Positions 13,264 through 18,698 of a stretch of 64,000 nt of DNA are shown piece by piece. How positions within the stretch are numbered: position 1 is the first letter of the stretch; every line of letters begins with the position of its first letter. Below the pieces are notes generated by a model, which ran no database searches, was not told where the DNA came from, and was given only the letters and a program-made list of their open reading frames with translations. The DNA comes from Amniculibacterium aquaticum (lineage in GTDB: Bacteria > Bacteroidota > Bacteroidia > Flavobacteriales > Weeksellaceae). The position numbers were made by a program, and so were the translations under genes. The DNA lies in contig NZ_REFA01000005.1 in assembly GCF_003852705.1 (NCBI RefSeq), forward strand, positions 1 through 64,000, in the 5' to 3' direction.

Positions 13264-13920
13264 ATGTTAAGAAACACCCTAACCGAAGAAAATTATCTGA
13301 AAGCTTTTTTTCATCTTGCCAACGAGAAAAACGAAGTGAGTGTAAATGAAATCTCTAAATTTCTGAATGTAAAAATGCCAACGGTAAACAACATGATGAA
13401 AAAATTTGCCGAAAAAAAATGGATTGTTTACGAAAGTTACAAACCCATAAAAATAACAGAATCGGGAAGAAAAGAAGCGGCTTTGGTGGTGAGAAAACAC
13501 CGTTTGACAGAAATGTTTTTGGTAAAAAAAATGAACTTCGGCTGGGAAAATGTTCACGAAATTGCTGAACAACTGGAGCATGTGCACTCCCCTATTTTCT
13601 TTGATAAAATGGACGAGTTGTTGGACTTTCCAAAGATGGATCCTCATGGCGAACCCATTCCGGACAAGGATGGAAACATCATTTCTCAGGATTTTGTAAA
13701 ACTAAGCCAATGCAAGTTAAAGTCTAAAGTTATTTTCTCTGCTGTGACCACCTCCGAAGACGATTTCCTAACCTATCTGAACGAAAGAAACCTAAAACTG
13801 GGACAGAAATTAGAAATTGAAAAAATTGAAAAATACGACCTGTCCATGATCATAAAAATAGAAGACAGAACCGAAACTTTGAGCCACATGGTCTGCGAAA
13901 AACTTTTGGTAAAACTATAA
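13264..13920 (+). CDS. DtxR/MntR-family metal-dependent transcription regulator
   Basis: 218 residues. N-terminal winged helix (ENYLKAFFHL...VSVNEISKFLNVKMPTVNNMMKKF), then the dimerisation/metal domain with RKHRLTEMFLVKKM and VHEIAEQLEHVHS, whose Glu and His residues are family ligands, then a C-terminal FeoA/SH3-like domain (ISQDFVKLSQCKL...LEIEKIEKYDLSMIIKIEDR). Such proteins bind Mn2+ or Fe2+ and then shut off metal uptake genes. Choice between manganese and iron cannot be made here, and no transporter gene lies next to it. The next gene, a restriction enzyme, starts after only 24 bases. Confidence 0.9.
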   Translation: MLRNTLTEENYLKAFFHLANEKNEVSVNEISKFLNVKMPTVNNMMKKFAEKKWIVYESYKPIKITESGRKEAALVVRKHRLTEMFLVKKMNFGWENVHEIAEQLEHVHSPIFFDKMDELLDFPKMDPHGEPIPDKDGNIISQDFVKLSQCKLKSKVIFSAVTTSEDDFLTYLNERNLKLGQKLEIEKIEKYDLSMIIKIEDRTETLSHMVCEKLLVKL

Positions 13921-13944
13921 ACAACACAGCATCTTACACAACAA

Positions 13945-16383
13945 ATGAAATACAAAAACATCCGAGAAGAAGAACTCAAAAATAAAGTCGGGGCAGACTG
14001 GTTTAAAAATTTCGACACCACTGAAATCATTGGCAATATCGATTTTTCTGTTTTTCCAAAACTAGATAGTTTATTCGGCAGAACGCCACTCCTTTGGGCA
14101 GAAGCCAAAACCGGGAATTACGATGTAACCACCATGTTTGTACAACTCATCCTGACGATTGGCAAAGCCAGAACCTTCGACAAAACCCTGCCTCCTGCAT
14201 TTCTCGGGGCTTTCGACTTCAAAAAAATGGCGTTTGTATCTTACATCAGCATTCAGGATATTTTTTACCTTAACGATTTCAATTGGAATGTAACGCCCAG
14301 CAATCACGACACCAAAGAGTTTCAACTCATCAAAGACCGTGTAGAAGCCATCCTGAAACAAAGTACCTCGGTTTACGATTATCAAAAAGACGAAAAAGAG
14401 CTCAAATTCTTCATCGCCAATAATATTGCCAAAGCCACAGAAACCGCCAAAATAAAAATCGATAAAAACAACTTTATCCCCATCTACCTCCGTTGGTTAG
14501 AGTTTGTAAAACCCAATATAGAAGTCAATTGGGACGAGCTGAAAAAAGCCAACATCCTGGACAGCGATTTCTATCTGGCTGACCTTTTTGTGGACGACAG
14601 AAATACCCATAACATAGATGACGACCTCACCATCCGGGACAATCTCTTTGTCATCTACCAAAACCAAGGCTACAAGATAGCCAAAGAAAACATCAAGCAG
14701 ATGTTTGATGCCACCATTACCATCCGCAACAAGGACGGCTACCAACAGTTTTGGAAAAGATACAAAAGACCGCCCATCAAAGCGTATCAGGAATATATTA
14801 TCGAACGCCGAGACTTGCTGGTACCCCAAGATATTAGAGAACGCAAAGGGGCTTTCTTCACCCCAAGGCAGTGGGTTGAACTTTCCCAAAAATACCTCAC
14901 CGATTATTTGGGCGAAAACTGGCAAGACGATTATTACATCTGGGATTGTGCCGCCGGAACCGGAAATCTACTGGCAGGTCTTACCAACAAGTATAATATT
15001 TATGCCAGTACGCTGGACCAAGCCGATGTTAATGTGATGCACGAGCGGATAGACCACGGTGCCAACTTGTTGCAAAAAAATGTCTTTCAGTTTGATTTCT
15101 TAAACGATGATTTTAGCCCCGTTTCCAAAGGTGGGAAAATGCCCGATTCTCTGTTCGATATCATTAATAATACAGAAAAAAGAAAAAAATTAGTGGTCTA
15201 TATTAATCCGCCGTATGCGGAAGCAGGAACAGGTCTAGGAAAGATGCACAAAAAGGATATTACATTAATTTTTGGAATAAATGAAAGATTAAAACCAATA
15301 ATTGGTAATGCTGTAAACGAAATTTTTGCGTTGTTTATGGCTAGAATTTATGAAAAAATACCTAATTGTATTATCAGTCAATTTTCTAAAATGAAATTCA
15401 TTAACGGTTCTAATTTTAAAAAATTTAAAGAATATTTCCTTGCCGATTATAAAGGTGGTTTTGTGGTACCGGCAGATACCTTTGATAATGTAAAAGGCAA
15501 ATTCCCTATTGGTTTTACCATTTGGAATACTTCCGAAAAAGTAAAAATGGATACCATTATTACCGATGTATTTTCCAAAAATGGCGAATACAATACAACT
15601 AAAGGATTTTATGGTAATTTATCAAAAGGAATAAACCAATGGATAAATAAATTTCAAGATAAATCTAATTTGAATATAGGTTTTCTTGATTGTTCAACTC
15701 CTGATTTTCAAAATAAAAATTATGTTTTTGTAGATAATTTAGAAAATGAAAAAAATGACCATAGATTTCATTTATATTTTTCAAAAAACAATTTATTAAT
15801 TGGTGCTGTATATTTTTCAGTTCGTCATTGTATAGAAGCCACTTGGCTCAACGACAGAGATCAATTTTTATTTCCTAATGACGGTTGGCAGTCGGACACC
15901 GAATTTCAGAACGATTGTTTAGCGTTTACCCTTTTTCATGGACAAAACAGAATTACCAATAGCGAGGGCACCAACCATTGGATTCCGTTTACCGAGCAGG
16001 AAGTCAATGCCCAAGACAAGTTTGAAAGCGATTTTATGACTCGTTTTATAAAAGGTAAACTCCCTCAGTCGGAAGAAGCGTCTTTATTTGGAGAAACAAA
16101 GACCAACCATCAGCCTTTAGTATTTTCTCAGGAAGCCCAAGCGGTTTTTGATGCAGGAAGAGCACTTTGGTGTTATTATCATGCACAGCCCAATGCCAAT
16201 GCCAACGCTAGTTATTACGACATCAGAGAACATTTCCAAGGCAGAAACGACAAAGGGAAAATGAACGCTAAAAGTACTGATGAAACTTATACCGAACTGA
16301 ATGCAGCACTCAAAAACAAAATGGCGGTTTTGGCAGACAAAATAAAACCCAAAATTTATGAGTATGGATTTTTGAGGGAATAG
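13945..16383 (+). CDS. One-chain restriction endonuclease-methyltransferase (type IIG-like)
   Basis: 812 residues. N-terminal nuclease-like segment: a PD-(D/E)xK pattern can be read as KLDSLFGRTPLLWAEAKTG (D41 region, then E-x-K). A helical linker follows. The methyltransferase core has FFTPRQWVEL, motif I DCAAGTGNLLAGL (S-adenosylmethionine binding) and motif IV NPPY in VVYINPPYAEAG, the signature of N6-adenine methylation of the gamma order. The C-terminal part should be the target-recognition domain. No separate R or S subunit genes are nearby, so one protein probably does cutting, methylation and recognition. Base composition is mosaic: about 15240-15830 falls to roughly 17-37 % GC per 60 bases against about 45-53 % on both sides. 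It may share the transcript of the upstream regulator. Confidence 0.82.
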   Translation: MKYKNIREEELKNKVGADWFKNFDTTEIIGNIDFSVFPKLDSLFGRTPLLWAEAKTGNYDVTTMFVQLILTIGKARTFDKTLPPAFLGAFDFKKMAFVSYISIQDIFYLNDFNWNVTPSNHDTKEFQLIKDRVEAILKQSTSVYDYQKDEKELKFFIANNIAKATETAKIKIDKNNFIPIYLRWLEFVKPNIEVNWDELKKANILDSDFYLADLFVDDRNTHNIDDDLTIRDNLFVIYQNQGYKIAKENIKQMFDATITIRNKDGYQQFWKRYKRPPIKAYQEYIIERRDLLVPQDIRERKGAFFTPRQWVELSQKYLTDYLGENWQDDYYIWDCAAGTGNLLAGLTNKYNIYASTLDQADVNVMHERIDHGANLLQKNVFQFDFLNDDFSPVSKGGKMPDSLFDIINNTEKRKKLVVYINPPYAEAGTGLGKMHKKDITLIFGINERLKPIIGNAVNEIFALFMARIYEKIPNCIISQFSKMKFINGSNFKKFKEYFLADYKGGFVVPADTFDNVKGKFPIGFTIWNTSEKVKMDTIITDVFSKNGEYNTTKGFYGNLSKGINQWINKFQDKSNLNIGFLDCSTPDFQNKNYVFVDNLENEKNDHRFHLYFSKNNLLIGAVYFSVRHCIEATWLNDRDQFLFPNDGWQSDTEFQNDCLAFTLFHGQNRITNSEGTNHWIPFTEQEVNAQDKFESDFMTRFIKGKLPQSEEASLFGETKTNHQPLVFSQEAQAVFDAGRALWCYYHAQPNANANASYYDIREHFQGRNDKGKMNAKSTDETYTELNAALKNKMAVLADKIKPKIYEYGFLRE

Positions 16384-16483
16384 TTTGAAACCTTTGGACG
16401 GTAACATTGCGAAAATCGAACACTTTCAGAATTATGGATTATTTTTTTTCAAAAATTAAAAAATAGGAAATTATCCGTCACAC

Positions 16484-16515
16484 TTTGTTTCCTAAATAAG
16501 AAACTTCTATCTTTG
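16484..16515 (+). promoter_or_regulatory. Promoter and operator of the toxin-antitoxin pair
   Basis: TTTG at 16484-16487 and TATCTTTG at 16508-16515, spaced by 20 bases, give a full flavobacterial promoter. Between them lies an inverted repeat GTTTC (16487-16491) / GAAAC (16500-16504). A dyad between the two boxes is the usual place for an antitoxin to bind and repress its own operon. Confidence 0.6.
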
Positions 16516-16531
16516 TACAAAATATTCTTGA

Positions 16532-16879
16532 ATGGATGATTACAAATTTCGAGTTAACTTTTTGGAGGAGGCAAAATCCTTTCTTGATGAGCTTGATGAA
16601 AAATCAAGAAATAAAATCATTTACAACATCTGGAAAGCAAGAAGTACGAATGACAAAGAACTTTTCAAAAAATTACAAGATGAAATTTGGGAATTTAGAA
16701 CAAAATATAACAAAGCATATTATCGACTTTTTGCATTTTGGGACAAATCGGACAAACAAGATACGGTGGTAATTTCAAGTCATGGATTAATCAAAAAGAC
16801 AGATAAAATTCCGAAAAGTGAAATTGAACGAGCAGAGAAATTAAGAGAGGAGTATTTTAACAAGAAAAGCAAGAAATAA
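16532..16879 (+). CDS. higB: RelE/HigB-type toxin (phage Gp49-like family)
   Basis: 115 residues of the Gp49/HigB type: helical FLEEAKSFLDELDEKSRNKIIYNI, then the beta-sheet core EIWEFRTKYNKAYYRLFAFWDK with the arginine and tyrosine residues typical of the mRNA-cleaving RelE fold, and the TVVISSHGLIKKTDKIPKSEIERA segment that is diagnostic of this family. Such toxins cut translated mRNA on the ribosome. The toxin comes first and the antitoxin second, as in higBA. Start and stop are unambiguous; the next gene overlaps by one base. Confidence 0.88.
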   Translation: MDDYKFRVNFLEEAKSFLDELDEKSRNKIIYNIWKARSTNDKELFKKLQDEIWEFRTKYNKAYYRLFAFWDKSDKQDTVVISSHGLIKKTDKIPKSEIERAEKLREEYFNKKSKK

Positions 16880-17187
16880 TGAAAACATATAGTTTAGATG
16901 AATTAACTGACCAATACATTGGAAAAAAAGGCTCAAAAAAAAGAGACGAATTCGAAAATGAACTTCGTTTGGATTTATTAGGTCAAGCCATAAAACAGGC
17001 TCGTCAAGAAAAAAAATTGACACAAGAAGAATTGGGTGACCTTGTTGGTGTAAAGAAGGCTCAGATTTCAAAAATAGAAAACAGTACAACTGATGCGAGA
17101 TTTACAACTATTCTAAAGGTTTTTGAAGCTTTGGGCGCAAAAGTTCATTTTAATGTGGAAATTAACCATAAGAACCTTGCCTTATAA
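16879..17187 (+). CDS. higA: HigA-type antitoxin with XRE helix-turn-helix
   Basis: 102 residues. The helix-turn-helix is DLLGQAIKQARQEKKLTQEELGDLVGVKKAQISKIEN, preceded by a lysine-rich N-terminal region (IGKKGSKKRDEFENEL) that may contact the toxin. Its ATG overlaps the toxin stop codon by one A (TAATG), so translation is coupled. It should neutralise the toxin and repress the operon through the dyad at 16487-16504. Confidence 0.9.
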   Translation: MKTYSLDELTDQYIGKKGSKKRDEFENELRLDLLGQAIKQARQEKKLTQEELGDLVGVKKAQISKIENSTTDARFTTILKVFEALGAKVHFNVEINHKNLAL

Positions 17188-17274
17188 CCATGCCGAAGGC
17201 ACAACAAGAATTTTAAATAATACCTGCTACCGTTTTCTTGGAATCCCCCCTGAAAACTTACACATTATACAAAG

Positions 17275-17306
17275 AAAAAGCTACCCAAAAAGTCTGGACA
17301 GCTTTA
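17275..17306 (-). terminator. Terminator of the TPR protein gene
   Basis: AAAGCTACCCA (17277-17287) faces TGGACAGCTTT (17295-17305) with two mismatches; on the minus strand a T-rich run follows. A degenerate member of the GCTGTCC hairpin family seen elsewhere in the window. Confidence 0.6.
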
Positions 17307-17327
17307 TTCTTTTGAAATGGATAAAAA

Positions 17328-18698
17328 TTATTTTTTATTCATTGCAGCGGCTTTTGCTTTGTATTCAGCAGCTTTTGCTTCATTTTTTGTAGAACGATAC
17401 AGATCGGCAAGCAACTCAACAACATCTATATTTTTGTTATCGATTTCGTACCATTTTTCTGCGTAAGGAAGGGTTTTAGAAAAACGATTTCTTCTTTCTT
17501 GCAACAATTTATTGAAGAGTTCTGTCTTACCCGCTTTTCTTGCAGTTTCGATATCGGCAACCGCTTTTTCATCATCACCCATGGCTAAGAAAGTAAGATT
17601 TTGCCAAGCACTCACCATTTTAGGATCCAGGTCCAATGCTTTTTTGAAAGAAGCTTCAGCCTCTGCAACCGTTGCAGGATTTTTACTTTGCAGAACACCT
17701 AAATTGTACCAATTGGTTTTGTCGTTCGGATTTTTGGCCACTTGAGCTTTCAAACTTTCTAAGAACTGATCGTTTTTCCCGGACTTGTAATAGACCACTC
17801 CTTGCAATTCTGATAATCGTGCATTGTTTGGGAATTTTTTCAATCCTTTGTCAATCAAAGCAATGGCTTCGTCATTTTTACCTGCTTCAATTAGCAATCT
17901 TACGGTTTCTTCGTAGATTTCCGGCTCTATACTTTTTGTTGTTTCCGTTTTGAAGTCTGAGTAATCTGCTGATTTTTTCAACATTTCCCAAGTTGTTTTA
18001 TCGAAATTTTCAACTTTTCCCGCTTTATTTTTTGCTAAATAATTGGTTTCTACACCTGTATAACCGGAGTTCACCAATTGTTGCATGATTTCTAGGGCTT
18101 TGTCGTTTTTCTTAGCATAAGCATAGCTCAGCGCAGCGTTGTACAAAAACTGACCGTTGTTTTGTCCACCCACTTTTAGCAAGTAATAGGTTTCTTTAAA
18201 TTTGTCTCCAGCTTTGTCATAATTTTTTGCATTGTAGGCATCCACAGCATCTTGGTTGGCTTTTTGCAAAAATGGATTGATCAATGCGTTTAGTTTTGGT
18301 AAAGTAGTCGGAGCATAACGATCTTCTTTCAAACCGGCAATTCCAGAGGCTTTAGCAGCTTCTTCTCCCCAATAGTACACTTTGTTTTTCTCTGCATCTT
18401 TTCCGGTATAGACTTTTTGTCTTGCCATTTCGGAAATTTTGGAAAGCATGGTAGCCCCTTCGGAAGTTTGTCCGGCAGTCATTAGCTCAAGACCTTTTAC
18501 GAAATAATATTGCTCAAGAGTTTCCGGATCCAACAGATGAGTTTTCCCACCCAAGAGAGAGCTGGCTTCGTTAATTTTGGTTTTCGCTACCGTTGTTTCT
18601 CCACCTTCTAAAGCTTTGAAAGCCGCTTGTATTTCCTTTTTTTGTGCAAATGAAAAGCTGAAAGCTAATACCAATACACTTAGAACTATTTTTTTCAT
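17328..18698 (-). CDS. Exported tetratricopeptide-repeat protein
   Basis: 456 residues with a signal peptide (MKKIVLSVLVLAFSFSFAQ). The mature part is built of TPR-like helix pairs: DAVDAYNAKNYDKAGDKF, AALSYAYAKKNDKALEIM, LIEAGKNDEAIALIDKGLKKFPNN, LGVLQSKNPATVAEAEASFKKALDLDPKM, and a lysine/alanine-rich end. TPR proteins serve as scaffolds; no enzyme domain is present. Conserved in flavobacteria just downstream of gyrA on the same strand, but the gyrA terminator at 18723-18750 suggests a separate transcript. Function unknown; probably periplasmic. Confidence 0.85.
   Translation of the reverse strand: MKKIVLSVLVLAFSFSFAQKKEIQAAFKALEGGETTVAKTKINEASSLLGGKTHLLDPETLEQYYFVKGLELMTAGQTSEGATMLSKISEMARQKVYTGKDAEKNKVYYWGEEAAKASGIAGLKEDRYAPTTLPKLNALINPFLQKANQDAVDAYNAKNYDKAGDKFKETYYLLKVGGQNNGQFLYNAALSYAYAKKNDKALEIMQQLVNSGYTGVETNYLAKNKAGKVENFDKTTWEMLKKSADYSDFKTETTKSIEPEIYEETVRLLIEAGKNDEAIALIDKGLKKFPNNARLSELQGVVYYKSGKNDQFLESLKAQVAKNPNDKTNWYNLGVLQSKNPATVAEAEASFKKALDLDPKMVSAWQNLTFLAMGDDEKAVADIETARKAGKTELFNKLLQERRNRFSKTLPYAEKWYEIDNKNIDVVELLADLYRSTKNEAKAAEYKAKAAAMNKK

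Follow-up and report, generated by a model that had tools for sequence, protein, structure and literature searches.

Recurrent exchange of an AT-rich, putative specificity cassette in a family of single-chain Type IIG-like restriction–modification enzymes

The window analysed here, a stretch of 64,000 nucleotides from Amniculibacterium aquaticum (contig NZ_REFA01000005.1, positions 1–64,000 of the forward strand), carries the gene of a predicted one-chain restriction–modification enzyme and a HigBA-like toxin–antitoxin pair (Table 1). The three genes are flanked by a dtxR-like regulator gene on the left and a TPR gene on the right. The two flanking genes adjoin, about 60–80 nt apart, in both genomes of the same genus and in three further genera, so that the unit between them in the window is an insertion relative to those genomes. 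Among the homologue loci fetched, L023 alone has a HigBA-like pair nearby that is similar to that of the window. Phage records held no match to the enzyme; plasmid records held 15 weak relatives, the best of them a 45% homologue on the H. pylori plasmid pUM157 (L103:3001–5900). This plasmid copy is unannotated, adjoins mobilisation genes and, recovered in three tblastn pieces, is probably broken.

Table 1. Features of the enzyme locus, in positions of the window.
Feature	Position	Strand	Basis or remark
dtxR-like regulator gene, left neighbour	13264–13920		
Insertion with enzyme gene and toxin–antitoxin pair, between two convergent genes	13921–17327		Flanking-gene spacing in relatives
One-chain restriction–modification gene, 812 aa, Type IIG-like	13945–16383	+	Open reading frame; motifs invariant in 70 homologues; AlphaFold2 fold matches
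Predicted order: N-terminal PD-ExK nuclease, gamma-class adenine methyltransferase, recognition region, conserved C-terminus	13945–16383	+	
PD-ExK nuclease signature, residues 28–74	14026–14166	+	E53, K55 and Q67 invariant, D33 at least 90% conserved (70 homologues)
SAM-binding motif I, DCAAGTGNLL, residues 334–343	14944–14973	+	D334, G338 and G340 invariant (70 homologues)
Catalytic motif IV, NPPY, residues 421–424; left border of cassette	15205–15216	+	Invariant (70 homologues)
Exchangeable AT-rich cassette, residues 427–633	15223–15843	+	GC3 0.164; segmentation; incongruent trees
Submodule V1, hypervariable loop after NPPY, residues 427–446; putative DNA-contact loop	15223–15282	+	Median pair identity 29%
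Submodule VM, second half of methyltransferase domain, residues 447–545	15283–15579	+	Exchangeable apart from V2
Submodule V2, putative target-recognition domain, residues 555–633	15607–15843	+	31 types among 70 proteins; M.TaqI superposition reaches residue 650
Conserved C-terminal region, residues 634–812 (WLNDRDQF onward); right homology arm	15844–16380	+	Identity to homologues mostly 55–75%
HigB/Gp49-like toxin gene	16532–16879	+	PF05973, E 6.5e-16
HTH antitoxin gene	16879–17187	+	PF01381, E 1.1e-13
TPR gene, right neighbour, convergent	17328–18698		

The enzyme was modelled with AlphaFold2 (pLDDT 83.6, pTM 0.61) and the model was superposed on solved structures. DrdV aligned over model residues 3–589 (Z 18.3, rmsd 12) and BpuSI over residues 6–640, both superpositions starting at residues 1–6; MmeI covered residues 295–666 and M.TaqI residues 304–650 (284 residues, rmsd 4.5). 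M.TaqI, HsdM and CamA all gave Z values of 15–16, and further fold matches were BrxX and LlaGI/LlaBIII, those to LlaGI/LlaBIII being limited to their methyltransferase parts. The DrdV and BpuSI alignments have a large rmsd, which points to differently arranged domains, and the order of the domains is thus better supported than the overall architecture. Residues 530–812 (15532–16380) were also modelled alone, with a pLDDT of 89; they had no clear match among PDB structures and are possibly an unsolved fold variant. The fold of the recognition domain is therefore read from the superposition of the whole model.

Searches of family models gave no significant match to the enzyme in Pfam, NCBIfam or PADLOC, and phmmer (E up to 1) found no sequence relative among solved structures. 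Six diverse homologues had no Pfam match above cut-off, PADLOC returned only weak MTase_II matches in two homologues, and a profile of 70 homologues compared with PDB sequences found Rab GTPases only, at chance level. Imm40, 4-hydroxyproline epimerase and Rab GTPase were dismissed as identities of the enzyme, being chance matches. No helicase or translocase family matched, and the 812 residues are fully taken up by the nuclease, methyltransferase and C-terminal parts. Signature and fold point to an N-terminal PD-(D/E)xK nuclease in the same chain as a gamma-class adenine methyltransferase that carries motif I and NPPY; the chain appears to have no ATP-dependent helicase/translocase domain, which would set it apart from Type ISP enzymes. 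Sequence homology to the solved MmeI/DrdV (Type IIL) family was not detectable, and the likeness to it is one of fold. As judged from sequence and model, the protein is a one-chain Type IIG-like enzyme, with predicted nuclease and methylase activity, from a family not covered by Pfam, NCBIfam or PADLOC models.

The gene is a mosaic in base composition. Mean GC and GC3 are 0.264 and 0.164 over codons 427–633, against 0.416 and 0.507 in the upstream flank (codons 1–426) and 0.408 and 0.397 in the downstream flank (codons 634–812). The lowest 200-nt GC value is 0.19, at 15600–15799, and the top value in the gene outside the dip is 0.47. Measured as the GC3 contrast over 207 codons, the dip (−0.31) goes deeper than in any other long gene of the window; the nearest of these reaches −0.14 and most lie between −0.01 and −0.09. 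Maximum-likelihood segmentation placed the low block at codons 407–631 (15163–15837) when run on GC3 and at 15250–15801 when run on all-position GC; the third-position shift begins slightly upstream of NPPY and the shift in total GC just downstream of it. An earlier note on this DNA had described such a mosaic, at about 15240–15830 (residues about 430–630), and had read it as the trace of a swapped recognition domain. The mosaic itself is real (GC 0.26 against 0.41–0.42), the observed 207-codon minimum being reached in 0 of 5000 codon permutations, and its proposed borders are close to the segmented ones. Amino-acid make-up was rejected as the cause of the low GC3, the residues of the cassette predicting a value of 0.45 against the observed 0.16.

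Across the 70 full-length homologues, identity drops steeply at NPPY and rises again around W634, at the borders of the dip, and is far from uniform along the protein. Median pairwise identity (2415 pairs) is 72% over residues 1–406, 29% over 427–446, 48% over 447–545, 31% over 555–633 and 60% over 646–812. Single linkage at 60% identity divides the 70 proteins into 31 cassette types. Even where the N-terminal region is at least 90% identical, V2 identity is below 50% in 50 of 58 pairs, and extreme cases are L031/L094 (N-terminal 100%, C-terminal 91%, V2 36%), L045/L046 (98%, 92% and 26%) and L085/L086 (99%, 90% and 24%). The pair identities of the two flanks are correlated (Spearman 0.67), against only 0.16 for the N-terminal region and V2. 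Borders were segmented in eight homologue pairs with N-terminal identities of 94–100%: the left breakpoint fell at residues 415–428, at NPPY, in all eight, and the right breakpoint at residues 621–679 in seven and at 753 in one. L031 and L094 are Flavobacterium isolates (Flavobacterium solisilvae and F. macrobrachii), and L009, L010 and L012 come from one-contig genomes, which argues against assembly chimeras. The segment between NPPY and about residue 633 has been exchanged recurrently throughout the family.

The cassette of the window gene has a different history from its backbone. By sequence, its type is also present in L022 (an uncultured Bacteroidetes MAG), L059 (a Desulfobulbaceae MAG, Thermodesulfobacteriota) and L064 (an Ignavibacteriota (Ignavibacteriae) MAG); several key relatives are MAG contigs, including the last two, which carry the window cassette on a divergent backbone. 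The window protein and L059/L064 share 56–57% identity over residues 1–406 and 60–64% in the C-terminal region, with 73–74% in VM and 83% in V2. L022 is similar in both parts (N-terminal 84%, V2 82%), and the closest backbone relatives, L031 and L094, are 87% identical in the N-terminal region and only 35–37% in V2. In quick LG+G4 trees, the cassette tree unites the window, L022, L059 and L064 with a support of 100 and rejects a grouping of the window with its N-terminal neighbours (p-AU 4e-59); the N-terminal tree rejects the clade of these four (p-AU 1e-68). The tested groups were picked after the identities had been seen, so these p-values are descriptive and the effect sizes carry the argument. 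Near-identical flanks with unrelated segments, and the reverse, are what recognition-domain exchange is expected to leave, and the sequences indicate that the window cassette was exchanged relative to its backbone. L059 and L064 themselves carry nearly the same enzyme gene in two phyla (N-terminal 98%, cassette 100%), so that either the whole gene was recently transferred from one phylum to another or the two MAGs share contamination.

Composition turned out to be a property of the whole family. Segment GC lies below the mean of its own flanks in 65 of the 70 homologues and segment GC3 in 68; among the 47 loci with enough flanking genes, segment GC3 is below that of the neighbouring genes in 44. 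A dip common to nearly all homologues, which the earlier note had itself named as one part of what would speak against its reading, is not by itself diagnostic of a swap in the window gene, and the compositional argument of the earlier note holds for the presence of the dip and not for its meaning. For the same reason it is unlikely that the dip records an AT-rich fragment of foreign origin recently imported into the gene in the window lineage. Such an import would agree with the separate history of the cassette and with the depth of the dip, the deepest in the window and the 4th (GC) and 8th (GC3) among the 70 homologues. However, the two homologues from other phyla that share the cassette, L059 and L064, have the same GC3 profile as the window gene (0.53–0.54, 0.17 and 0.43–0.45), and cassettes in GC-rich hosts mostly remain below their backbones (in L095, 0.65, 0.29 and 0.68). 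The cassette DNA of the window is, moreover, only about 80% identical to that of L022, L059 and L064, so the shared cassette is no very recent copy of theirs. AT-richness characterises the cassette class as a whole and is not the trace of one recent foreign import.

A segment that varies in every homologue and is AT-rich in most could also have evolved rapidly in place, under relaxed or diversifying selection and with its low GC arising by drift; the somewhat higher FYMINK fraction of the cassette (0.47, against 0.39 and 0.32 elsewhere in the protein) would fit this. We consider it very improbable. Rapid change in place cannot yield a cassette 83% identical on a backbone of 56–57% identity and yet one of about 36% on a backbone of 87%, and one shared history is rejected by the AU tests. 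In columns conserved in more than 95% of sequences, GC3 is still 0.166 in the segment against 0.34 elsewhere, and the region coefficient for GC3 stays unchanged once conservation is added. Variability or conservation was therefore rejected as the cause of the low GC3.

The exchange that the earlier note proposed is upheld by the incongruent trees and by near-identical backbones with unrelated cassettes, although the exchanged piece is larger than a recognition domain: it begins at NPPY and takes in the second half of the catalytic domain. Sequence comparison further shows that parts of the cassette can be exchanged separately. L023, L024, L026, L067 and L068 are 76–79% identical to the window protein over residues 446–553, approximately, and only 38–45% over residues 554–633, and L026 and L028 show a separate exchange of cassette parts between themselves as well. 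The loop after NPPY is modelled with low confidence (pLDDT below 50 at residues 425–440). In Flavobacterium aciduliphilum, a broken copy of the gene (L093:6001–8255) lies in two frames, with residues 392–474, approximately, around NPPY unmatched; this stretch falls right at the cassette border.

The diversity of cassettes in the family recalls shuffling loci such as phase-variable hsdS, in which silent cassettes or inverted copies elsewhere in the genome are moved to an expression site. For the window gene such a programmed switch seems exceedingly improbable. In its own genome (a 74-contig assembly), the cassette protein matched only itself at E values up to 10, and the cassette is bordered by no substantial repeats, only short low-identity two-copy matches. 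The list of open reading frames contains no recombinase gene next to the cassette.

These observations are very probably explained by a single-chain Type IIG-like enzyme with an exchangeable specificity cassette, reaching from NPPY to about residue 633, that is replaced by recombination in conserved arms. A single recognition region would serve both the N-terminal PD-ExK nuclease and the gamma-class adenine methyltransferase, and it probably touches DNA through residues 555–633 together with the hypervariable loop at 425–440. The conserved DNA on either side, encoding the catalytic core upstream and the C-terminal region downstream, would serve as homology arms, so that an incoming allele could replace the cassette by ordinary homologous recombination. 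Cutting and methylation would depend on the same segment for reading DNA, and a single swap would then change the specificity of both while leaving the enzyme self-consistent. Because nuclease and methyltransferase would be re-targeted together, the swap should be tolerable for the cell.

That recognition domains are exchanged is well established for the S subunits of Type I systems and for one Type IIG system of H. pylori whose S subunit is a separate protein (PMC3077401). In H. pylori, Type IIG enzymes made of one chain can also change specificity, by frameshift (PMC3936762). The window enzyme resembles the Type IIG/IIL enzymes DrdV, MmeI and BpuSI in the order of nuclease, gamma-class methyltransferase and recognition region within one chain. 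It differs from them in its 812-residue chain, with no sequence match to solved structures and no clear fold match for residues 530–812. With M.TaqI and other gamma-class adenine methyltransferases it shares NPPY and a catalytic domain that superposes together with the start of the recognition domain, whereas M.TaqI has no nuclease domain and a different C-terminal region. HsdS exchange and domain movement (DoMo; PMC3077401, PMC3983042) likewise swap unrelated recognition sequences within conserved flanks by recombination. In those systems the S subunit is a protein of its own, with repeats flanking its two recognition positions; the window enzyme is a single chain in which one variable segment, starting at the catalytic NPPY, has no substantial flanking repeats. 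HP1353-HP1354/JHP1272, an H. pylori Type IIG system compared by its description (PMC3936762), is also a single chain in which a change to the recognition part re-targets both activities. There, a phase-variable homopolymer adds a C-terminal domain by frameshift; in the family of the window enzyme, an internal segment is replaced. The CjeFV and Eco57I Type IIG families (PMC3936762) were considered by description only.

Low GC3 was also seen in the recognition domains of other restriction–modification systems. In related genomes (L104–L133), HsdS recognition domains (Pfam Methylase_S) have a GC3 of 0.22 against 0.32 in neighbouring open reading frames, and the Methylase_S region is the lower of the two in 27 of 30 cases; these neighbours may not be hsdM or hsdR. 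The EcoKI hsdS gene of E. coli K-12 (L152:4069–5463) contains two blocks with GC3 of 0.14–0.21 between blocks of 0.38–0.57, and hsdM of the same strain has a GC3 of 0.66. From the layout of HsdS, we take the two low blocks to be, by position, its two recognition domains. Among the papers listed by searches of an open library, we recognised none on the AT-richness of recognition domains. It is tempting, if somewhat less than an even bet, to propose that the recognition segments of unrelated architectures (the one-chain family, Bacteroidota HsdS and EcoKI HsdS) are intrinsically AT-rich at synonymous sites, largely independently of host, residues and conservation, and that a common process acts on specificity cassettes. 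In one possible process, each allele would be so rare, and paired so seldom, that neither GC-biased conversion nor codon selection could take effect. Candidate causes include a mobile AT-rich pool that adjusts slowly, a lack of GC-biased conversion in unpaired alleles, and selection.

Such exchange was already known in other restriction enzymes; the family is uncatalogued, and the apparently general AT-richness of recognition cassettes is the less expected observation. Natural exchange of putative specificity cassettes across phyla is documented here within a single-chain Type IIG-like family, and natural pairs with 98–100% identical N-terminal halves and unrelated cassettes offer material for mapping recognition residues. 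The cassettes are consistently AT-rich, which is a warning not to take GC dips in such genes for recent imports and prompts the question of how base composition evolves in rarely paired alleles. If recognition segments are indeed AT-rich in general, a GC3 profile could by itself be enough to find recognition domains.
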